Below are positions 1-46,200 of a stretch of DNA of 64,000 bases, piece after piece (the first letter of the stretch is position 1; each line of letters begins with the position of its first letter). Both the position numbers and the translations under genes were made by a program. This DNA comes from Saprospiraceae bacterium (lineage in GTDB: Bacteria > Bacteroidota > Bacteroidia > Chitinophagales > Saprospiraceae). The notes below the pieces were generated by a model. The model ran no database searches and was not told the DNA's origin. It saw only the letters and a program-made list of their open reading frames with translations. Location: assembly GCA_020629715.1 (NCBI GenBank), contig JAHDCU010000004.1:124001-188000 (forward strand), in the 5' to 3' direction.

Positions 1-1093
1 CGGTACGTGTTGCCTCCTTTGGGGCGCCATACATTTTATAGGATATGATCATAAACTTATATGTTGCATCCTCCAACACTTCATAAGTAGCATCATTTCC
101 TTCTGGGGTTGTGATTTCAAACTCACTTATTTTGGTTTGTTTGATTGCCGGTTCTGTTTTGATTTGATCTATGATTTCCCACTCTGTCTTTGGGTAGTCT
201 TTAAAGTTTGCCATATACTGTGCATTGGGTAGCTCTATTACTTTCCCATCGTTTTTATTTTTCAGTTTCCAAGCGACAATCTGCACATTAGCCATGGCAT
301 CTTCTTCTGCAGACCTCTGCGTTCTTATGTCTGCGCCTTTTTTGAAAGGTCTAAAATCTGTATCTGGAATATCCCATACAAAATTACTGAGGCAGAATAT
401 AAGTGTAACTAAAGTCAATCCTCCCAACAGCCCCCACTCGATCTTACTATTTTTGATCCATTGGTGCATTTCTTTATGCTTAAATAAGAAATAAAAAGCA
501 GGCACTAGCAAGACAAGATCCTTGAAGAAAGATACTTTGGGCTCTAGCTTTAAAAAATCTCCGAAACAACCACAGTCCGTTACTTTCATATTATTGGCAT
601 TATAATCTGCCCAGGATGAAAAGCTAAAGAAATTGACTCCATCTGGGACGTATCCCGTCAAGAATGTAAAGCCTGTCAATACCGTAAAAAACACAACGAT
701 CAATAAGAATAACCATGCCGTCCATTTTGGTTTAGAACCTATGATCAACATTACTCCAAGTACGATCTCAAGCACAATCATGAATACTGAAAACGAACTT
801 GCATACTGAGACAACCATGGAAACATCGGCGCAATAAAACTAAACCAAGTACCCTCAAAAGTACTCTGGAATTCTGTGAAATATTGCTCCATTTTATAAC
901 CCGTACCTAATGGATCTACAGCTTTTACATAGCCCGAAAATATGAATAAAGCTCCACAGAAATTCTGTAAAAAAGTCATCAACCAGCTTTTGTGATTTTT
1001 AAAAACAAAAGCTGTAATCACAGTCAAGATCACCGCAGCAACTGCTACTCCTAAAACTAACTGACTTAAGGTAATGGACATATTGGATAACAT
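1..1093 (-). CDS. DoxX-like (BT_3928 family) membrane protein, partial
   Basis: The reading frame starts at an ATG at 1093 and runs open off the left edge, so the C-terminus is missing. The N-terminal half has four hydrophobic segments, with the DoxX-like stretch GYVKAVDPLGTGYKM followed by an aromatic loop. A CGCFGDF motif after the segments gives a CxC pair suited to redox chemistry. A long soluble C-terminal part follows from about residue 220. In Bacteroidota this family commonly sits directly after a DUF1599 gene, exactly as here (12 bp gap), often before tpiA, which would lie outside the window. The family is clear to me by motif and neighbourhood; the biochemical role is unknown, with a membrane redox role only inferred. 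Confidence 0.8.
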   Translation of the reverse strand, partial: MLSNMSITLSQLVLGVAVAAVILTVITAFVFKNHKSWLMTFLQNFCGALFIFSGYVKAVDPLGTGYKMEQYFTEFQSTFEGTWFSFIAPMFPWLSQYASSFSVFMIVLEIVLGVMLIIGSKPKWTAWLFLLIVVFFTVLTGFTFLTGYVPDGVNFFSFSSWADYNANNMKVTDCGCFGDFLKLEPKVSFFKDLVLLVPAFYFLFKHKEMHQWIKNSKIEWGLLGGLTLVTLIFCLSNFVWDIPDTDFRPFKKGADIRTQRSAEEDAMANVQIVAWKLKNKNDGKVIELPNAQYMANFKDYPKTEWEIIDQIKTEPAIKQTKISEFEITTPEGNDATYEVLEDATYKFMIISYKMYGAPKEATRT

Positions 1094-1105: not shown

Positions 1106-1651
1106 TTATTCTTGTAATTTAATGAGAGCAAACACCGCATAGTTTAGCATATCTTGATAATTTGCCTTCAGTCCCTCGCTGATGAGCGTCTTACCATCAT
1201 TAGATTCTATGCTTTTAGTTCTTAAAATTTTCATTAGAATAAGGTCAGTCATGCTACTGACTCTCATATCTCGCCAGGCTTCACCATAATCATGATTTTT
1301 ATCCATCATGAGTTGTTTGGTTTCTGCTACATAATGATCATAGGACTCCTGCACTTTTTCTGTAGGCCATTCTAGCTGTTGATCAGAGATATGATCAAGT
1401 TGAATCATTGCCATGACGCAATAATTGATAATACCGACAAACTCAAGATCGATAGGATCATCAACCTTGGCAACAGACTTTTCTTCTATAGATCTTATGC
1501 GATTCGCTTTGATGAAAATCTGATCTGTCAATGACGCGGGTCTCAAGATCCTCCAAGAAGTGCCATAATCTATTGTTTTTTTAACAAATATATCACGGCA
1601 TCGATTGATGGCTTGATCAAATTGTTGGCTGGTAAGGTTCAGATCTTTCAT
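1106..1651 (-). CDS. DUF1599 protein (nucleotide-modification-associated family)
   Basis: A 181-residue soluble protein built from two tandem copies of the same motif block: DYGTSWRILRPASLTDQ near residue 29 and DYGEAWRDMRVSSMTDL near residue 120, each followed by an I(M)K..R..SIE segment and an NY.(V/A)(M/F)A(M/L)I(Q/K)L helix. This duplicated DUF1599 architecture is typical of Bacteroidota. The family has been linked by comparative genomics to nucleotide modification, but the reaction is not established. It precedes the DoxX-like gene by 12 bp, so the two are probably co-transcribed. Start chosen at the only well-placed ATG before the first repeat. Confidence 0.85.
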   Translation of the reverse strand: MKDLNLTSQQFDQAINRCRDIFVKKTIDYGTSWRILRPASLTDQIFIKANRIRSIEEKSVAKVDDPIDLEFVGIINYCVMAMIQLDHISDQQLEWPTEKVQESYDHYVAETKQLMMDKNHDYGEAWRDMRVSSMTDLILMKILRTKSIESNDGKTLISEGLKANYQDMLNYAVFALIKLQE

Positions 1652-1742
1652 TTCAATACAAATATAGAAATCGTATATACTTCAAAGATCAAATCTTCGT
1701 ATATGATTTACAGCTAATGAATATCGAATAATTTCGAATAAA

Positions 1743-2636
1743 ATGTTAATCTTCGATCTTACAAACGATTTTATGCTTGTACTAATCATATGTATAGTGA
1801 TCAATGCCCTCATTGGAGTGGCATTCAAGCTATTTGATAAATTTAAGATCAATGTACTGCAGGGCATTGTGGTCAACTACTTCACTTGCGTCCTTACGGC
1901 GTCAGTCGTCTATGGTCAACCTGCTATAAGTCCTGACACCTTTCAAGAGCCCTGGATATGGCATGCTGCCTTTCTGGGTTTACTTTTTGTGATTGCATTC
2001 AATATATTGGGCCGTACGGTGGCTATCGCAGGTGTCATGGTAACCACTATTTTCCAAAAAATGAGTTTTATCATTCCAGTGTTAGTAGCAGTACTACTGA
2101 TGTCAGATAGTTTTGGATACCTCAAATTAATAGGGATACTCCTTGCTATAGCCTCCTTATTGCTTCTACAATGGCCTAAGCGGGAAGATGTATCGAAAAT
2201 GAAAGTTGGCTTATTATGGTTAGGTATTACTTTTATAACAAGTGCTATCATAGACACATACTTATACTTGATAGAAGTATTAGAAATCGCTCCAAATGGA
2301 AATATAAATTTTGTAGCCAGTTTATTCTTTTTTGCAGGACTATATGGCAGTATTGCCGTTTTATACCAGTATTTTACAAACGGGATCACTCTGCAATGGA
2401 AGAATATAATCGGAGGTATATGCCTTGGTATCCCTAATTTTTTCAGTATTTATCTCATCCTATACTTATTGGCACATAATTGGACAGGAAGCGAATTGTA
2501 TCCACTCAATAATGTAGGGGTCATAGCCGTCTCTAGCTTATTTGGGATTGTCCTATTTAAAGAAGGAATCACAACATTGAAAGTACTCGGATTTTTCGCA
2601 GCCGTATTATCGATCATCGCAATTCTATTCGCATGA
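1743..2636 (+). CDS. EamA/DMT-superfamily permease
   Basis: A 297-residue integral membrane protein of about ten hydrophobic segments arranged as two halves, as in drug/metabolite transporters of the EamA group. Substrate cannot be told from sequence. Two ATG starts are possible, at 1743 and 1773; the second (MLVLII) begins right at the first membrane segment and is equally plausible. The stop overlaps the start of the yigZ gene by 4 bp (ATGA), so the two are likely translationally coupled, with coaE also overlapping further on. The functional link among transporter, YigZ and CoaE is not obvious. Confidence 0.8.
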   Translation: MLIFDLTNDFMLVLIICIVINALIGVAFKLFDKFKINVLQGIVVNYFTCVLTASVVYGQPAISPDTFQEPWIWHAAFLGLLFVIAFNILGRTVAIAGVMVTTIFQKMSFIIPVLVAVLLMSDSFGYLKLIGILLAIASLLLLQWPKREDVSKMKVGLLWLGITFITSAIIDTYLYLIEVLEIAPNGNINFVASLFFFAGLYGSIAVLYQYFTNGITLQWKNIIGGICLGIPNFFSIYLILYLLAHNWTGSELYPLNNVGVIAVSSLFGIVLFKEGITTLKVLGFFAAVLSIIAILFA

Positions 2637-18068: not shown

Positions 18069-19529
18069 TTAGGCCCAATAAGGCACATAAACACTAAATT
18101 TTTTGGACACATTATCAGCATCCTTTGGCTTTATTTTACCAATCTCAATCGCTTCCTTGATCAATAATGAGATCTGAGCAGCTTGTTTATCATGCATGCC
18201 GAAACGCTTTCTCAATGAAGCATTGTTAAAACCACCATTTCCAAAGTACTCTATAATACTGTGCTGATAACAGGCTTCGATTCGCTCCTCTACTGACATC
18301 TTCGCATAAGGTTTAGGAGCAAACATGGTCACCTTAAATGAGTTTTCAAACTCTTCAAATCGTAAAGGTGGCAAACCATATAACTCGATATTAATAACGG
18401 CCTTTTCAAATCCAGAACCTCGTTCTTCACAGATATTGTATCTCCTAAAAGCTGAAGCCAATACTTCATTTCTTGACTCTGGAGTTGTACGGATCAACCT
18501 ATCAATATTCTTTGACGGAAGGAGTTTGCCAGGATTGGTAAAGACTATTCTATCATTAAAAATCTCTATCATAGGACCTGCTCCTCGAACCGAAAAATCT
18601 TGATGAATCAATATGTTGGCAATCAATTCTCTCAAAGCTATTTCTGGATAGATCGAAGTGTCCACTCGTAAGGCATTCTTAATCACTTCACTGTCTTGTA
18701 ATAGTCCTTGCGTAAACCTGATCAATCCTTCAAAGCCAATAGCATATCCTTTATGCCCTGGAAACTCTTTACTACTACCAGCTTTATTGACACCTTCATA
18801 CTTGATCAATCGAACAGACTTTCTGCTCAATCCATCAAACTGTCTCAAGTCCTTTGCAGCCGCTACTGCTCCAAAATTGGTAATGTAGTAACCCTTTCCA
18901 TCTACATTGACAATCATCTTTTCATCTTCCATCCATTTAAGGATTTCGTCTAAATCACGTGGAATAGGCCGACCCAACAATTCTAATATTTTACCATACT
19001 CTAATAGGGTGATGACCTCTGTAGCTGAAAGTAATTTAGATGCATGTAGCTCTTCCCAAGTCGGAGATTTGCTATTGAGCATCAAGGCTCCTACTTCTTG
19101 GCGAGAAGCCTCTCGGGTAGTGCCTCCACTACGTATAAAACTTTTCTCAATTGTCTGACCTGCCAAATGAACAGGCTTAACTGCACTTTCTTTTATATAG
19201 ACAAAAAGGATACTCTCACCTCTAAATTCTTCTATTGAGTGATCTATACGTACCAAGGGATCGACACCATCTCTACCTAATGAAGCCAACTTATCTACGA
19301 TAGCATTTGCTTGCTCTCTCTTGATCCCAATTAGCTTCGCATTTTTATTATCTATGCCAAATGCCAGAAAACCTCCACCTGGCTGATTAGCAAAAGCAGA
19401 CAGATGCTTACATAGCTTCTCATTATTGGGAGATAGGTCTTGTTTCCAATCTATCTCATTGAGCTCGATTGGAACTTTACCCAAGGATTTATCTAAGTAG
19501 GCATATGCTTCGGTTATCCAATCTTTCAT
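18069..19529 (-). CDS. AlbA_2 (Schlafen AAA-4-like) ATP-binding protein
   Basis: A 486-residue protein. The N-terminal AlbA_2 domain shows ELNEIDWKQDLS and LCKHLSAFANQPGGGFLAFGID (residues about 22-58). A middle region is followed by an HATPase_c_4-type segment with ALRELIANILIHQDFSVRGAG and FNDRIVFTNPGKLL, and a C-terminal winged-helix-like end. Such proteins are often annotated as transcriptional regulators and are frequent inside type I restriction loci. The start ATG (19529) overlaps the stop of the hsdR remnant by ATGA, so it is translationally coupled to the hsdMS operon. It may regulate or modulate the system; that is inference. Confidence 0.85.
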   Translation of the reverse strand: MKDWITEAYAYLDKSLGKVPIELNEIDWKQDLSPNNEKLCKHLSAFANQPGGGFLAFGIDNKNAKLIGIKREQANAIVDKLASLGRDGVDPLVRIDHSIEEFRGESILFVYIKESAVKPVHLAGQTIEKSFIRSGGTTREASRQEVGALMLNSKSPTWEELHASKLLSATEVITLLEYGKILELLGRPIPRDLDEILKWMEDEKMIVNVDGKGYYITNFGAVAAAKDLRQFDGLSRKSVRLIKYEGVNKAGSSKEFPGHKGYAIGFEGLIRFTQGLLQDSEVIKNALRVDTSIYPEIALRELIANILIHQDFSVRGAGPMIEIFNDRIVFTNPGKLLPSKNIDRLIRTTPESRNEVLASAFRRYNICEERGSGFEKAVINIELYGLPPLRFEEFENSFKVTMFAPKPYAKMSVEERIEACYQHSIIEYFGNGGFNNASLRKRFGMHDKQAAQISLLIKEAIEIGKIKPKDADNVSKKFSVYVPYWA

Positions 19530-19672
19530 ATTACAGACACTTTTAAATATGATTTTATTACAGCATCTTCTTTTCTATCCCGTGTAGTCCCAAGTGTATG
19601 CGGATAGCCTTCTTGTGCTATCAACTCCGTGAAAGCTTGTTCCAATTTTTCTTCTATAAATTTCCCCTTCAT
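19526..19672 (-). pseudogene. hsdR': Remnant of an hsdR 5' end (48 codons)
   Basis: A short open frame whose product begins MKGKFIEEKLEQAF and contains EGYPHTLGTT then DRKED. This aligns with the first 36 residues of the intact HsdR (MSGKFTEYKLEETF, EGYPHTLGTT, DRKED), then departs into an unrelated tail ending VSVI. The nucleotide sequence differs at many third positions from the intact gene, so this is not a recent copy of it. Its ATG overlaps the hsdS stop (19669-19672) and its stop overlaps the AlbA_2 start (19526-19529), both as ATGA. It marks where an original hsdR directly followed hsdS. Confidence 0.8.
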
Positions 19673-20913
19673 ATGGCATTGGCTTTTTGCAATGATTTAT
19701 CAGTTGCCATTTTAGAAAGAAGAAGAGATTTTAACAATGTGAGATTTTCATTGGTATTGGTATTTTTCTTAATTGAATTAAATACTTTCTCTACTTGAGT
19801 ATTGAATACGTGCTGAATGTGGTTTGGTGGCACTATCAACGGAATCTGCTCAATGTTTCCTTTGTTAATTTTTGGCTGTGCTGCACCAGTAACTAAATGT
19901 GCTACATTAATATTTTGAAGTGACAAATAAATCATTTCATTGGAATAATTTTTTTTCTCACTTAGGACATGTGCATGATTATTGACCCAAAATTTTCCCC
20001 AAACATATTGTAATGAAGGATTTCCGTTTTCATTAATAACATAAACTCCATCTTCTGCCATTAGCACGTAAGTACCATCAAAGCTATATTCGTTTATATG
20101 GTCTACTATTCCCATAGCTCCATAATAAGGGTATTCTCCTTGTATCTTCTCTCTTTCTATGCTTGATATTGGTTTTCTCTTGTGATTTAAAATGTTGATT
20201 ACTTGATTAAGTTTATTCACCTCCCATCCCTCAGGCACCTCCTTCTCCAACTCCTCATTCCAGACCATCTTGCCACCAGAAGATTTATAAGGCTTTCCAT
20301 CTAAATCGGGCCTGCCTATCGAAGCAGCATATTCTGCGGAGATAGGAAATTCAAAATCTACAAACCAATGTCTGTACAAAGTCTGAGCTGTTTCTTCCAG
20401 TTTGGCATTGATTTGTTCATTGAGTTGGATGCGGTCGGTGACGGTTTGGTACTCGGCTACGATGGCTTGTTGTTCTGCTATGGGTGGGATGGGGAGTTCT
20501 ACTTCACACATTTCATCCCAATCAAAAGTTTCTCTTGTACTTCCGTGACTCATAAATCTTGCATAGCGATCAAACTCTGGTCGAGAAAACCACATCATCA
20601 AATAATCAGGTTTTAATTCATCCGTGTCTACTATTTCGAAAACTTTATAAGATTGAGAAATAATGGCTTTGTCATATTCTTTTAGAATAGCAACAGATAT
20701 TTTATCTCCATTTCTTGATGTTACTGGCCCATAGGCGAACTGATTCTTTTCAATGATTTTGTATTTGGACATATCGGAACCAATAGTATTAGCAATAGAT
20801 GGAATTAATATCTTTTGTATGCTAACACCTAAAAGTGTTTCTACTGATAAATCAGTATTCTTTACAGTAACTTCTTGTATGTATCTGCCAAGCCGCTTAT
20901 AGTTTGATCTCAT
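19669..20913 (-). CDS. hsdS: Type I restriction enzyme, specificity subunit
   Basis: The DNA-recognition subunit, 414 residues, with two variable target-recognition domains separated by a conserved helix. The end of the first domain is marked by LPIPPIAEQQAIVAEY and the spacer by LNEQINAKLEETAQTLYRHW (about residues 130-180). The second domain begins after PEGWEVNKLNQV near residue 235 and ends with a matching IPLIVPPNHIQHVF and a C-terminal helix. The gene overlaps hsdM by 17 bp, so both are translated together. Target sequence cannot be read from the protein. No simple repeat for phase variation is present. Confidence 0.93.
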   Translation of the reverse strand: MRSNYKRLGRYIQEVTVKNTDLSVETLLGVSIQKILIPSIANTIGSDMSKYKIIEKNQFAYGPVTSRNGDKISVAILKEYDKAIISQSYKVFEIVDTDELKPDYLMMWFSRPEFDRYARFMSHGSTRETFDWDEMCEVELPIPPIAEQQAIVAEYQTVTDRIQLNEQINAKLEETAQTLYRHWFVDFEFPISAEYAASIGRPDLDGKPYKSSGGKMVWNEELEKEVPEGWEVNKLNQVINILNHKRKPISSIEREKIQGEYPYYGAMGIVDHINEYSFDGTYVLMAEDGVYVINENGNPSLQYVWGKFWVNNHAHVLSEKKNYSNEMIYLSLQNINVAHLVTGAAQPKINKGNIEQIPLIVPPNHIQHVFNTQVEKVFNSIKKNTNTNENLTLLKSLLLSKMATDKSLQKANAI

Positions 20914-22456
20914 ACCCTAAGTTTTTAAAAACCTCTTGAAGCTTGGAGTTTGATTCGACTTGCTTTTGCAATAAATCAGTTAATTCAGATTGAAGTCCAT
21001 TCATTTTCTCGTCAAAGTCAATATTCTCATCTCGATTTATAAATTCGATGTACTTGCTTGGCACAAGAGAGTAATCTTTTTTGATGACTTCTTCTATTTT
21101 GGCAGCATAAGAATATTCTGCCTCCTCTTCATACTCTCCACCTTCACTTTGCCATTGATGAAAAGTGTTAGAGATTCTATTTACTTGTTCTTCCGAGAAC
21201 TGAATGTATTTCTTCTCAAATGGAATTCCGATTTGGCGTAAATCCATAAATAGGATTTCATCTTCTCTTTTTCTATATTTCCAAGTGATATCTCCAATCT
21301 TCTTTTCTTGTTCCTTTTTGTTTCTGTTAAGAATCCAAAGTGTCACACTTATATCTGTGGTATAAAACATATTCCTTGGAAGAATGATAATAGCCTCTAT
21401 CAACTTATTGTCAATCAGTTTCTTTCGAATTTTATACTCTTCGCCACCTCCCGATAATGCTCCATTTGCCAAGATGAATCCAGCTACACCATTGACTGAC
21501 AGTTTGCTCACCATATTGAGTATCCAAGCATAATTAGCATTGCTTTTTGGTGGCACATCATAGCCTTTCCATCTGGGATCGTCTTGCAGTTCATCTTCCG
21601 CTCTCCACGCCTTTTGATTGAAGGGTGGATTAGCCATTATGTAATCTGCTTTCAAGTCTGGATGCTGATCTCTGTGAAAGGTATCTGCTGCTCTTTCACC
21701 TAAGTTGGCTGAGATGCCACGGATCGCCAAGTTCATCTTGCCCAGTTTGTAGGTGGTATTGGTGAGTTCTTGTCCATAGATGGAAACCTCCTTTTTGTTT
21801 CCGTTATGAGCTTCTATGAATTTGATGGATTGCACGAACATACCACCAGAGCCACAAGCGGGATCATAGATGATGCCTTTGTAGGGTTGTATCAGTTCAG
21901 CGATCAGATTGACAATACTCTTTGGAGTATAGAATTCGCCCTTCCCTTTTCCTTCTTTCAGGGCAAACTTGCCTAAGAAGTACTCATAGACCCGACCTAT
22001 GAAGTCTTGTGATTTATCTTGTTGGGTATCTATCAGGTTAATCGTATCCAATAAGGCAGACAACTTACTCTTATCCAATCCTAATCTTGAGAAATAGTTA
22101 TCAGGCAATGCCCCTTTAAGGATTGGATTGTTCTTTTCTATTTGGTGTAGTGCTGAATCTATCTTTAGAGCAATATCATCTTGCTTGGCTTGAGAGATAA
22201 TATAAGACCATCGAGAAGATTCTTCCAGAAAAAAGACATTCTTCATTGTGTAGAAATCTTTCATCTCTACATACTTGTCTTTTCCTTCTGCTATCAGTTC
22301 TTGCTTCCGCTCTTCAAATTTGTCTCCTGCATACTTTAAAAAGATAAGTCCTAAGACAACGTGTTTGTACTCCGCAGATTCGACCGACCCACGGAGTTTG
22401 TTAGCTGAATCCCAAAGTGATTCTTCTATTGATTTAGTTTTTATGTTTTTACTCAC
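20897..22456 (-). CDS. hsdM: Type I restriction enzyme, N6-adenine methylase subunit
   Basis: The modification subunit, 519 residues, that methylates adenine in the HsdS-defined site. The N-terminal helical HsdM_N domain spans about residues 10-140. The methylase core has GKGEFYTPKSIV, the SAM-binding DPACGSGGMF (198-207) and the catalytic NPPF (276-279, in MANPPFNQ). The start codon is GTG at 22456. It is the first gene of the minus-strand defence block and lies downstream of the tRNA-Arg gene and repeat region. All catalytic motifs are intact. Confidence 0.95.
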   Translation of the reverse strand: MSKNIKTKSIEESLWDSANKLRGSVESAEYKHVVLGLIFLKYAGDKFEERKQELIAEGKDKYVEMKDFYTMKNVFFLEESSRWSYIISQAKQDDIALKIDSALHQIEKNNPILKGALPDNYFSRLGLDKSKLSALLDTINLIDTQQDKSQDFIGRVYEYFLGKFALKEGKGKGEFYTPKSIVNLIAELIQPYKGIIYDPACGSGGMFVQSIKFIEAHNGNKKEVSIYGQELTNTTYKLGKMNLAIRGISANLGERAADTFHRDQHPDLKADYIMANPPFNQKAWRAEDELQDDPRWKGYDVPPKSNANYAWILNMVSKLSVNGVAGFILANGALSGGGEEYKIRKKLIDNKLIEAIIILPRNMFYTTDISVTLWILNRNKKEQEKKIGDITWKYRKREDEILFMDLRQIGIPFEKKYIQFSEEQVNRISNTFHQWQSEGGEYEEEAEYSYAAKIEEVIKKDYSLVPSKYIEFINRDENIDFDEKMNGLQSELTDLLQKQVESNSKLQEVFKNLGYEIKL

Positions 22457-22822: not shown

Positions 22823-22857
22823 AAAAAAGAAAGAGTAATCGGGGAGATTACTCTTTC
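22823..22857 (-). terminator. Rho-independent terminator
   Basis: A perfect 12-bp stem (22829-22840 with 22846-22857) around a 5-nt loop, followed on the minus strand by six T residues. It would end minus-strand transcription coming from the repeat region and tRNA-Arg before it reaches hsdM. Confidence 0.8.
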
Positions 22858-22917: not shown

Positions 22918-22998
22918 ATAAAGATAAGCATAAATGATGCCTAATTGCAAGTATTGACTTCGTCCATCCTGATAAGATCCAAGGTCAAAATGTCAAAC

Positions 22999-23034
22999 CT
23001 AGAACGTGTCGTTCTTTTGGGCTTTCTCTTTCAT
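22999..23034 (-). other. Micro-ORF B2, 11 codons (MKEKAQKNDTF)
   Basis: The codons spell MKEKAQKNDTF and end in TAG. AAGGAGG lies only 3 nt before the ATG, strong in sequence but closely spaced. The same GGAGG can pair with CCTCC about 35 nt upstream, which could hide the ribosome site. The coding stretch also folds as a hairpin (GAACG/CGTTC). Translation is unproven. Confidence 0.3.
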
Positions 23035-23122
23035 ATGCCTCCTTGAGTAAACTCAATACGTCCTATGAAATGTAGGAGGATTGACTGCGTCCATCCTGAG
23101 AAGATCCATGTGTAGATAAAAG

Positions 23123-23161
23123 CTATAGTTGCCATGGGCAACTATTCTGGCTTTTTTTCAT
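23123..23161 (-). other. Micro-ORF A2, 12 codons (MKKSQNSCPWQL)
   Basis: The codons spell MKKSQNSCPWQL, with AGGAGTGGA directly before the ATG. The coding stretch is itself a hairpin (ATAGTTGCC/GGCAACTAT). On the plus strand the same hairpin is followed by seven T residues and would act as a terminator, so the open frame may be incidental. Confidence 0.3.
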
Positions 23162-23222
23162 TCCACTCCTAAAAGGATTGACTGCGTCGATCCTGATTGG
23201 ATCCAAGGTCAAAATGTCAAGC

Positions 23223-23258
23223 CTAGAACGTTCCGTTCTTGTAGGCTTTCTCTTTCAT
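23223..23258 (-). other. Micro-ORF B1, 11 codons (MKEKAYKNGTF)
   Basis: The codons spell MKEKAYKNGTF and end in TAG. It differs from B2 at two residues (Y/Q and G/D). AAGGAGG precedes the ATG by 3 nt. The hairpin formed by this stretch is complete here (AAGCCTA and GAACG stems), whereas the B2 copy has one mismatch and one wobble pair in the outer stem. Confidence 0.3.
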
Positions 23259-23346
23259 ATGCCTCCTTGAGTAAACTCAATACGTCCTATGAAATGTAGG
23301 AGGATTGACTGCGTCCATCCTGAGAAGATCCATGTGTAGATAAAAG

Positions 23347-23385
23347 CTATAGTTGCCATGGGCAACTATTCTGGCTTTTTTTCAT
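23347..23385 (-). other. Micro-ORF A1, 12 codons (MKKSQNSCPWQL)
   Basis: Identical to micro-ORF A2, but preceded by GGGAGGAGTGGA, which places GGAGG 6 nt before the ATG, an ideal spacing. It lies about 40 bp past the tRNA-Arg terminator on the same strand. The upstream hairpin here is CCCAAGTTTACTTGTGGG. Confidence 0.35.
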
Positions 23386-23423
23386 TCCACTCCTCCCACA
23401 AGTAAACTTGGGTCGTGTAGAAA

Positions 23424-23455
23424 GAAAAAAAGCCAATTACCAGAGGTAATTAGCT
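23424..23455 (-). terminator. Terminator of tRNA-Arg
   Basis: An 11-bp stem (23431-23441 with 23445-23455, one G:T-type pair) around a 3-nt loop, followed on the minus strand by a run of seven T residues. It begins 12 bp past the tRNA 3' end. Confidence 0.85.
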
Positions 23456-23466
23456 TTTCTCGTTTG

Positions 23467-23540
23467 TGATCCAGCCAGGATTCGAACCTGGGACCTACAG
23501 ATTAGAAGTCTGTTGCTCTATCCAGCTGAGCTACTGGACC
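23467..23540 (-). tRNA. tRNA-Arg (anticodon TCT)
   Basis: A 74-nt cloverleaf on the minus strand. The acceptor stem pairs GGTCCAG with CTGGATC (one G:T), the D arm has AGCTCAGCTGGATAGAGC, the anticodon arm ACAGA-CTTCTAA-TCTGT gives anticodon TCT for AGA codons, and the T arm contains GGTTCGAATCC. The discriminator is A and the CCA end is not encoded. A terminator follows and a clear promoter precedes it. Confidence 0.97.
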
Positions 23541-43223: not shown

Positions 43224-46200
43224 ATGAATCGTAATCATATATTTTTTCTTTTTGGTCTACTAATAGCAAATATGGTCTTAGGAGGCTGTGCCACAAAACG
43301 AAAAAAAGGAGAGACTGGAAAAGTAAAAACATTTTTTCATAACATGAATTCGAAATACAACGGATATTTCAATGCTGATGAAATCATGAAAGAAAGTCTC
43401 GTGACACTAGAAACGAGTAATTCTGATAATTACTACGAAATACTAAATGTATATCCCTACGGCAATACAAGTGCTGCCAAGTCTGTAAGTCCTGATCTTG
43501 ATATCGCCATAGAAAAAGTAACGACGGTAGCTACACTCCATAAGCCAAGTCATTGGGTTGATGACTGTTATGTACTTATGGGTAAAGCTCAGTTCCTCAA
43601 GCAAGACTATGAATCAGCTGAGGAGACATTGGAATATTTTCAAGAAGAATTTGATCCAGGTAATCCATATGGAAGAGCATATGATAAGAATAAGGGTAAA
43701 AAATCTGCTAAAGAAGTAAAAAAAGCTAGAGAAGAAGAGAAAAAAGAGGAAGCCAAAAAACGAGAAGAAGAAAGAGAGGAAAGAGAAAAAGAGAAAAAGG
43801 AAAAAAGAGAACAAGAACAAAAAGAAAGAGAAGAAGCAAGAAAGCAGAAAAAGAAAGAACAAGAAGCCAAGAAAAAAGCTAGAGAAGAAGAGCGTAAACG
43901 AAAAAAGAAAAAAGAAAAAAAACGTAAGGGTAAAAAAAGAAAAGAGCGAACTCCAAAAACAGAAGAAAACACCAGTAACCAAGCTAATGATAAAACTGAG
44001 ATAGAAACTACTGAAGTAAAAAATGCAGGTGATAACACTCATAAAAACACTTCCCCCACCAAGGATGAAAGAAAAAAAACGGAGGATGACAAAGAGGAGA
44101 AGGCAGAGCTCGAAGAAGAAAGAGAAAGTAAATCAGCTGATAGGAAAAAACCAATCACTAGATACCCTGATGGTGATGTGGGTATATTCGGCCATGCGCC
44201 TTCTTTCTATGAAGGTGTATTATGGTTATCAAAAACCTACATGGAAAGAGAAAAATACTCCTATGCGGAATATTTGCTCAACAAACTGGAAAATGAATAT
44301 CCTAGTGGATCTGATATTGCCAAAGCTATCCCAGCAGCACGTGCTCATCTTCATCTAAAACAAGAGCAATATAATGCGGCGATAAATATGCTTAATGAGG
44401 CTATAGATATAGAAAAAGATAAAACAACTAAAGCTAGATACACTTACATTATAGCTCAGATTCAAGAAAGAAAAGGTGCATACTCTGAAGCGTTAGGATC
44501 TTATAAACGAGTAAAATCCTACAAGCCTACTCAGACCATGGAATTTAATGCACTACTTAATACCATAAAATTAGATGCTAGATTAAATAATGATTCTAAT
44601 ATTGTCAAACAGCTAGAAAAGCTGCTCAAAGAATCAAAATATGCTGAGTATAAGGATCAAATATATTATACGCTTGGAGAAGTCAAATTTTTGAACAATG
44701 ACAAAGAAGGAGCTATTGCAGCCTTTGAGAGCAGCCTAGAATATTCTACAGACAATAAAATACAAAATCTAGAAAGTAATTATCGCCTAGCTACCCTACT
44801 CTATCAATCAGAAGATTACGTAGCTGCTAAAAAATATTATGATAGCACTGTACAGATTATGGATAAAGGTGATAGTCGATACATGGAGGTAAAACGCTTT
44901 GCAGATAGCTTAACTGATATTGCTAAAAATATAGAAATCATTAGCTTACAAGATAGCCTTATCACGATTGCAGAAATGTCAAAGGAGGATCGTATGGAGC
45001 TTGCTAAAAAATTAAAGGAGGAAGAGAAAAGCGCTGAACCTCTAAACGATAATAAAGAAACAGGAGCAACCAGTAAAGGTATAGTACGAAGTGGACTTAG
45101 AGGCAACTCAACTTTTTTCGCGTATAATACCGCAGCCAAAATAAACGGTGCTCAAGTATTTCAAACAAAGTGGGGAGATCGAGTTCTCGAGGATAATTGG
45201 AGAAGATCTAAAAAACTGGGAGGGAATCAGATAGCAGAATCCGATAATGAAGAAATCGAATCTGTAGAAGAGGAAAATCAGGATTTATCAGATGCCGAGG
45301 TATTAAGGATATTTCGAGATGTTCCGTTTTCGGAAGTACAACGAGTAAAAGCAAATAAAATGCTTAGAGATGCATATTTTGATTTGGGAGTAGCATTTAG
45401 AGATCAGATCAAGAACTACCAAAAATCAAATGAATCTTTAGGTATTTTAGAATCTAAATTTCCGAAGAATCCCAGAGAGCAAGATGCTTTTTACTATCAA
45501 TACCTCTCTTATAAAGATCTCAATGATATGGCTAAGGCAAATGAATATAAAGCTAAAATCATATCTAGATATCCCGATTCTAAGTTTGCACTTATCCTAA
45601 ATGATCCAAGCTATGCTAACCAGCTGCTGACCTCCGAACAAAAGTTACAAAACTACTATGACGAGACGTATTCACTTTTTCAAGGTCATAAATACGATGC
45701 TGTAAGAGAGCGTCTAAGTTCTGTAGATGAAATGTACGACAGTAAGCATCCACTTAAATCAAAATTTGCTCTACTTGAAGCTATGACTATAGGACAATCC
45801 GATGGTAAGGAAGCTTATCTTTCTGCGTTAAAGAACGTGACCACTAGACATCCAAATACTCCCGAAGAAAAAAGAGCTCAAGAAATTATTCGATTTTTAC
45901 GAGGCAATCAAAATGCATTTGACGAAGTTCTTTATGATGAAGCTCTAGAGAAATTTTCATTAAGCGACAATAAGCTTCACTATGTCATCGCAGTATTATA
46001 CGATAGTAATGATACAAAGAAACGAGATGCCAAGATTGCCATTACAGGGTACAATAAAAAATATCATAAACTAGATAAACTCAGAGTTACTGATATATAT
46101 CTAAGTACGAAGGATAAAACTCAAATAGTACTCGTAAGAAAATTTAAAAATAGAGATAAGGCGATGGAATACTATAGCTCTGTGATGGAGAATAAATCAG

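Follow-up and report, generated by a model that had tools for sequence, protein, structure and literature searches.

A structured, tRNA-anchored repeat family in Saprospiraceae with tails that imitate the T-stem of the host tRNA

The array behind tRNA-Arg(TCT)

The window, by which we mean the whole 64,000-nucleotide stretch of Saprospiraceae DNA that was analysed, carries an array of two 224-bp copies at 22949-23396 on the minus strand, directly behind a tRNA-Arg(TCT) gene. TRF reported a period of 224, 2.0 copies and 95% matches over 22949-23394, and by our own count the two copies are identical at 212 of 224 bases. Each copy holds two related units, B and then A in the direction of the tRNA, which gives four units in all. 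They are listed below from the tRNA onwards, together with the terminators on either side; bit scores come from R2, a covariance model built on an alignment (A2) that includes the window locus and has the unit A1 tail as a seed sequence.

23466..23540, minus strand: tRNA-Arg(TCT), the anchor of the array, called by ARAGORN and by Rfam RF00005; its 3' end reads ...GGTTCG and then AATCCTGGCTGGATCA
23424..23455, minus strand: intrinsic terminator of the tRNA, AGCTAATTACCTCTGGTAATTGGCTTTTTTTC (from the sequence)
23342..23379, minus strand: unit B1 hairpin, AAAAGCC...GGCAACTATAGCTTTT, with T7 following in plus-strand reading (from the sequence and its fold)
23300..23334, minus strand: unit B1 tail, degenerate block CATGGATCTTCTC plus T-arm-like hairpin AGGATGGACGCAGTCAATCCT at 23301-23321 (R2, 25.9 bits)
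23219..23248, minus strand: unit A1 hairpin, AAGCCTACAAGAACGGAACGTTCTAGGCTT (from the sequence)
23173..23214, minus strand: unit A1 tail, TTTTGACCTTGGA TCCAATC AGGATC GAC GCA GTC AATCCT, hairpin at 23174-23194 (R2, 57.0 bits)
23118..23155, minus strand: unit B2 hairpin, identical to that of B1 (from the sequence)
23076..23110, minus strand: unit B2 tail, hairpin at 23077-23097 (R2, 25.9 bits)
22995..23024, minus strand: unit A2 hairpin, AAGCCCAAAAGAACGACACGTTCTAGGTTT (from the sequence)
22949..22990, minus strand: unit A2 tail, the last of the array and slightly decayed (AATACT), hairpin at 22950-22970 (R2, 45.1 bits)
22823..22857, minus strand: intrinsic terminator beyond the array, GAAAGAGTAATCTCCCCGATTACTCTTTCTTTTTT (from the sequence)

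An earlier note on this DNA had described four tandem units in two copies of period 224, and both the TRF result and the identity of the copies bear this out. Its view of A and B as paralogous units was right, all four units do end in the same tail hairpin, and the two minus-strand terminators that it took to bound the array read as it said. The common order that it gave for the units holds in part: judged by eye, the small GTTTAC hairpin precedes the first B unit and both A units, and has been lost before the second B unit. We considered a leader peptide starting from the GGAGG and ATGAAA motifs and rejected it, since the frames found by eye run to only 11-12 codons.

When the minus strand of the array (471 bases) was compared with 100 dinucleotide shuffles, its fold was better than that of every one (z -3.95), and the plus strand does almost equally well (z -3.78), so that folding energy alone picks no strand. 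The terminator of the tRNA contains AAAAGCTA, which can pair by eye with TAGCTTTT just ahead of the first tail. At gathering score the tRNA was the sole Rfam match across the window; the best permissive match over the array was snoR136, with an E-value of 0.021 and below the gathering score.

Behind the array, in the same direction, lie type I restriction-modification genes for HsdM and HsdS and then an AlbA_2/RecG-like gene (18069-22456), and on its other side a uracil-DNA glycosylase gene. Among the five neighbouring window proteins scanned there was no integrase or transposase, in agreement with the earlier note; the search that it proposed for further copies elsewhere in the source genome (99% complete) found none. 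A sister genome (G001) has one 224-bp B+A pair at the same place where the window has two, and by eye the roughly 400 bp that its contig holds beyond the array differ from the window flank. Elsewhere in the window, TRF also picked out low-complexity AG/A-rich tandem repeats at 43728-43920.

The tail and its link to the host tRNA

Across the family a unit extends from the 3' end of a tRNA through the trailer and terminator to a conserved tail. On the tRNA strand the tail consists of the block TTTTGACCTYGGA, some free bases and a hairpin of the form AGGAT-x-NNN-GNA-NNN-A-ATCCT, in which an outer stem imitating the T-stem is followed by an inner stem, usually of 3 bp, and mostly a GNA loop. The block comprises 13 conserved bases and is spaced 7-8 bases from the hairpin. 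In the A units AGGAT pairs with ATCCT, and inside this stem lie a C.A mismatch, a stem of 3 bp and a loop of three bases; in the B units the hairpin is kept and the front block is degenerate. Covarying secondary structure, a feature looked for in small-RNA genes, is present in the tail: among 19 hand-chosen tails (MAFFT alignment A1, excluding the B units, L029 and one near-identical L065 copy) we counted 24 cells changed on both sides of the hairpin, against 8.2 after shuffling, and the first pair of the inner stem is GC in 10 tails, AU in 8 and UA in 1. The 111 tails aligned with the model give the same picture, in an alignment that is biased towards that model.

Tails were compared between host RNAs in 98 of the 111 matches, after dropping one duplicate locus and the weak or partial matches, including the B tail of G001. 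These contain 76 distinct parsed tails, of which 47 have a GNA loop and 6 a GNNA loop, by a parse that maximises pairing and thus flatters it. Seven loops have four letters, six of them GNNA and one of these six GNRA. Loops of the GNA and GNNA type are very stable in DNA, and their prevalence is a hint, not a proof, that the tail has a role as DNA. Perfect hairpins of at least 5 bp with C(GNA)G or C(GNNA)G loops are found 26 times on the tRNA-sense strand of the units and 3 times on the other.

The position and sequence of the tail are tied to the RNA gene upstream. The distance from that gene to the start of the first listed tail is 101-132 bp in 36 of 41 arrays; in the window and G001 the first listed tail is an A tail (251 and 253 bp), with the B tails at about 131-133 bp. 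The outer stem matches the antisense of bases 59-64 of the locus's own tRNA at a mean of 5.0 of 6 positions, compared with 4.38 of 6 when tRNAs were swapped and a maximum of 4.68 in 2000 shuffles; these counts retain four rows (L090, L015, L029 and L122) in which the hairpin parse was misplaced. Thus AATCCC of a tmRNA is answered by GGGAT, AATCTCG by CGAGAT, and AATCCCC of a tRNA-Ala by GGGGAT. We also considered whether the block GACCTYGG imitates the acceptor stem. It resembles antisense tRNA-Arg acceptor ends, yet it is similar behind tmRNA, Ala and Ser genes, and we therefore claim only the T-stem imitation.

Beyond the hairpin, many tails run directly into a copy of the 3' end of their own tRNA. 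The 79 tails that we scored come from the 41 arrays in which ARAGORN called the RNA gene, so that tails whose tRNA is split or missing are not among them. At 32 of them at least 14 of 18 bases of the tRNA end follow, at 22 at least 16 of 18, and at 47 no copy was found at the 14-of-18 level; controls gave 0.035 with shuffled letters and 7.0 with tRNAs drawn at random from the set. The copy starts at A58, in the T-loop just after TTCG, and the exact 18-mer from A58 follows a tail in unrelated loci. In the window units all that is left of the tRNA end is AATCCT.

A similar construction is known from the tRNA-linked repeats (TLRs) of E. coli, first described in 1978 according to the excerpted text of PMC8144298. 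These also lie behind a stable-RNA gene, have their boundary at A58 and carry an antisense T-stem copy before each copy of the 3' end. At tyrT three copies of AATCCTTCCCCCACCACCA are spaced by 178 bp, each following GGGGAAGGAT, the antisense of its start; at rrnB, GGCAG can pair by eye with the copied CTGCC. Since the tyrT repeats follow the same plan, the A58 boundary is common to two phyla. In an informal comparison we noticed no sequence common to the two families beyond the tRNA letters, and unlike the E. coli repeats the Saprospiraceae units have the TTTTGACCTYGGA block, an inner hairpin with 3 bp and a GNA loop, and occasional genes between tails. The window array resembles a TLR in lying behind a tRNA gene and in its direction, but where a TLR shares 18-19 bp with the 3' end of the upstream tRNA it has AATCCT alone. 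Because it has no long copy of the tRNA end, we regard it as built like a TLR and do not file it as a strict E. coli TLR.

The trailer provides a further link, in that 31 of 38 first units can form a stem between trailer and pre-tail sequence (score 7 or more), compared with 12% when units are swapped; as the stem sequences differ between loci, this is covariation. On the tRNA-sense strand its cells include 33 G.T or T.G and 6 A.C or C.A pairs, a strand signal that is weak because about 20 of the G.T cells represent one repeated position (by eye). These stems, the strongly covarying tail and the strand preference of the C(GNA)G and C(GNNA)G hairpins would suit tRNA-linked small RNAs, in which read-through of the terminator would yield an RNA of about 150 nt with a T-arm-like tail, its 3' end made by tRNA-processing enzymes, that would act like rrA, rrB and rrF of E. 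coli. The latter belong to repeats of the same plan and, in the excerpt of PMC8144298, are described as transcribed RNAs that bind both Hfq and CsrA in vitro, while the TLRs outside rRNA operons are there said to have no known function. We think it unlikely that small RNAs account for the units, which lie behind a strong terminator and in some genomes have genes between their tails. The tetraloops, with one GNRA among six GNNA, fit DNA at least equally well, and Rfam at gathering score returned only tRNA and tmRNA in 20 unit-bearing loci.

Distribution, gene content and known mobile elements

The earlier note had raised the possibility of a structured repeat family and held that a lack of homologous units in related genomes would speak against its reading; with the covariance model we found such units behind tRNA and tmRNA genes in relatives. 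An exact tail pattern matched 20 stretches in a collection of 84,980 species. Eleven of these (10 genomes) belong to Saprospiraceae or Lewinella(ceae), and by eye the hairpin follows in all of them; the other nine are scattered elsewhere and lack it, again by eye. Seven of the first 11 have a tRNA called by ARAGORN, and the scattered nine have none. A first version of the pattern, with the wrong spacing, was discarded: it matched 43 of 398 genomes, and among 30 loci only L029, L040 and L043 were true, the rest having no tRNA.

With the covariance model, whose E-values are rough, matches at 1e-8 or below were obtained in 32 of 298 Saprospiraceae genomes, in 10 of them by construction since these genomes gave sequences to the model, and no match at this level was found in the other 266, so the arrays are patchy. 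At the loose level of E <= 0.05, which includes chance matches, the figure is 236 of 298. A draw from the order gave 9 of 198 genomes at E <= 1e-5, four of them from other families of the order and one of these (G088) in the model; a draw from the phylum gave 5 of 247, with one weak match outside the order. The window array is thus a member of a structured, tRNA-anchored repeat family present in a minority of genomes from many genera. The earlier reading is partly supported; it missed the imitation of the T-stem and the copies of the tRNA 3' end that bound units in relatives. Among the literature matches listed, whose coverage lay outside most subscription journals, there was no description of such units in Bacteroidota.

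Of 30 loci inspected, 24 immediately follow a tRNA or tmRNA gene, whole or fragmentary. ARAGORN placed such a gene within 1.5 kb in 21; three follow a split or displaced tRNA (L009/L082, L136/L089 and L130/L104), two are separated from an upstream tRNA-Arg by 2 and 10 kb (L127/L086 and L075/L080), and in four (L093, L094, L095 and L101) there was no tRNA or tmRNA within the sequence examined. The host genes are tRNA-Arg (TCT, TCG and ACG), tRNA-Ala(GGC), tRNA-Ser(TGA), tRNA-Lys(TTT) and tmRNA, types that resemble known integration targets. Behind the tmRNA of G438 (L068, about 220-345, minus strand) a trailer stem and TTTTGACCTAGG are present with no T-arm hairpin after them, which suggests a half-decayed or an alternative unit. 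We further observed, in three genomes, tRNA-Arg genes that by eye appear split in the anticodon region, with tails behind them (L009, 1254-1461; L135, about 1419-1958, minus strand; and L136). For the first there is a match to RF00028, the model of group I introns, that stays below gathering (35.7 bits, E 1.4e-7), and the split gene of L135, which gave no group I intron match, adjoins a gene for a PD-(D/E)XK endonuclease (PF11645).

In five places genes lie between the tRNA and a tail. In L201 a tmRNA and a first tail are followed by a HipBA toxin-antitoxin set, with genes for HTH_3 (HipB) and the N-terminal and C-terminal parts of HipA, and by a weak tail-like hairpin (21.6 bits) 24 bp past the HipA_C stop; the DNA following both tails is nearly identical. 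We do not call this a compact cassette, because the second tail has no TTTTGACC block and about 730 bp separate the first tail from hipB. L181 has a tail, a gene for a 516-aa LRR/Por-secretion protein, and a second tail that shares the same pre-tail hairpin and precedes an apparent decayed tRNA 3' end, and L218 has two units, two family-less ORFs on the opposite strand and a third tail, followed by CTGCCGGGATCACC of the tRNA. Two cases are looser: in L127 two tails are preceded by a 2-kb stretch that contains a small ORF and a gene with an OmdA domain, and in L075 9.7 kb lie ahead of a tail. When 38 downstream stretches were searched with the model, gene-bearing intervals were found in L201 and L218 only; that search left out L210 and L223, and L181 came from a separate one.

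These arrays recall several known systems. Like integron cassettes, the units stand in a row at one anchor with a folded end site and a variable interior, and a few of their intervals hold genes, one of them a toxin-antitoxin set; unlike integron cassettes, most carry no gene. At the recombination point of attC sites the R' and R'' boxes read GTTRRRY and RYYYAAC. Membership of the units among attC sites was rejected, as R-box motifs were found at 0 of 79 tail junctions and none of 20 array genomes yielded an integron integrase (TIGR02249 over cut-off). Over the curated cut-off there is one in 298 family genomes (G030, C40:3592-4530, 421.9 bits), and this genome has a single, weak tail match (E 0.024). 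By eye, integron-integrase-like genes occur commonly in genomes of the family whether these have arrays or not, and show no visible link to the arrays, and in 5 of the 20 array genomes the only recombinase matches have a weaker, XerC/D-like score pattern. One genome (G068; L226, 1183-2731) has an integron-integrase-like tyrosine recombinase without the integron patch directly behind its SSB gene; recombinases of this kind recur often in the family, in some cases next to a small cysteine-rich protein.

REP/REPIN elements with RAYT are likewise short hairpin repeats with a conserved flank, but the Saprospiraceae units differ from them in being anchored at a tRNA or tmRNA gene. We rejected membership here because Y1_Tnp (PF01797), present in 12 of 15 array genomes, was not found in the other three (G001, G190 and G282), although G190 has 11 tail matches.

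The likeness to Islander-type islands is that the 3' end of a tRNA is seen at the gene and again displaced downstream, in a subset of arrays (for example L165 and L085, and by eye L218; in the window it is decayed). According to the excerpted part of the Islander paper (PMC4383910), tRNA islands leave a regenerated target and a displaced fragment, which is how the A58 copies look. In contrast to such islands the units measure about 150 bp and not kilobases, have no integrase, and have a conserved hairpin as their right end. Tails might then be att scars of ordinary tRNA-targeting islands with integrases of their own, given the same target genes, the direct repeats and the presence of islands in some of these tRNAs (L130 and L134). 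We consider this very improbable: among the loci inspected no island ends in a tail as its attR, and a mere remnant would not be expected to preserve a hairpin that covaries and lies at a constant distance.

The proteins scanned next to units include no integrase that could be assigned to the units themselves. Integrase genes lie about 317 bp from a tail in L130 and L134 and were dismissed as recombinases of the units, as they belong to elements that split or displace the upstream tRNA, clearly so in L130 and less so in L134. In L130 (3172-4650) the tyrosine integrase gene lies beside a displaced 3' half of tRNA-Arg(ACG) that has carried its repeat unit along; the position of this half between gene and tail suggests that the integrase acted at the anticodon arm and not at the T-loop, a further point against att scars. 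In the genus of G175 we also searched 14 genomes for an empty site between matching flanks, and inspected the loci of G376, G034 and G322. By eye G175 and G376 carry a unit at tRNA-Arg(TCT) and G034 has none, but the flanks are not shared and so the comparison failed. The same genus has a dispersed, IS-end-like match of 35-40 nt, which we take to resemble an IS21 family end.

Origin of the units

Errors of replication behind a heavily transcribed tRNA gene could produce arrays passively, template switching giving inverted copies of the tRNA 3' end and perfecting the hairpins and slippage multiplying them, with no dedicated enzyme or function. The units are imperfect palindromes of local sequence with locus-specific trailer stems, their copy numbers vary, and the 224-bp repeat of the window is a plain tandem duplication. 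We nevertheless doubt that passive duplication is the origin, because the TTTTGACCTYGGA block with its spacing, the distance of 101-132 bp and the GNA loop recur across tRNAs and genera, and because the exact 18-mer from A58 turns up after tails in loci unrelated to each other.

The explanation that we favour, and put forward tentatively as one with a substantial chance of being correct, is that the array is a row of miniature elements, cassette-like but without genes, which arrived at the 3' end of tRNA-Arg by integration at the T-loop. The unit would exist free, probably as a circle, and be joined to the T-loop by a recombinase acting in trans that recognises both the T-arm of the tRNA gene and the hairpin resembling it in the unit. 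With every insertion the tRNA would be rebuilt from the left end of the unit and the old 3' end pushed downstream, and the gene-bearing intervals between tails may reflect the same process with cargo. The window array probably grew by a later tandem duplication of 224 bp, as suggested by the single B+A pair of the sister genome, and its old copies of the tRNA end would have decayed to AATCCT. We prefer integration at the T-loop because it explains the A58 copies, the cargo and a right end that is fixed, being conserved across different tRNAs. The steady distance of the first tail from the RNA gene, the T-stem match to the host tRNA, the kinds of RNA gene used and the differences in copy number between relatives also speak for it. 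Several observations count against it, namely the 47 tails without a copy of the tRNA end, the rarity of gene intervals, the failure to find an empty site and the patchiness of the arrays. That no recombinase is linked to the arrays also counts against mobility, and the variation of inner sequences between species with the structure kept is more in keeping with selection in place than with recent mobility.

A broader proposal, which we regard as quite unlikely, is a cassette system outside integrons in which T-loops of tRNA and tmRNA genes serve as anchors, hairpins copied from the T-arm are the folded single-stranded sites, the recombinase is unlinked, and the E. coli TLRs are relics of the same kind of process. 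In such a system a XerC/D or integron-integrase-like protein would stack cassettes of 50-400 bp, mostly empty and sometimes with genes such as HipBA, behind essential RNA genes.

A second TLR-like family in another phylum, with the A58 boundary, the T-stem imitation, a 13-base block and cargo, makes the origin of TLRs testable. Finders of integrons and islands generally rely on integrase genes or attC motifs. Should the units prove mobile, the T-loops of tRNAs would anchor a cassette system that is not expected to show in current finders.
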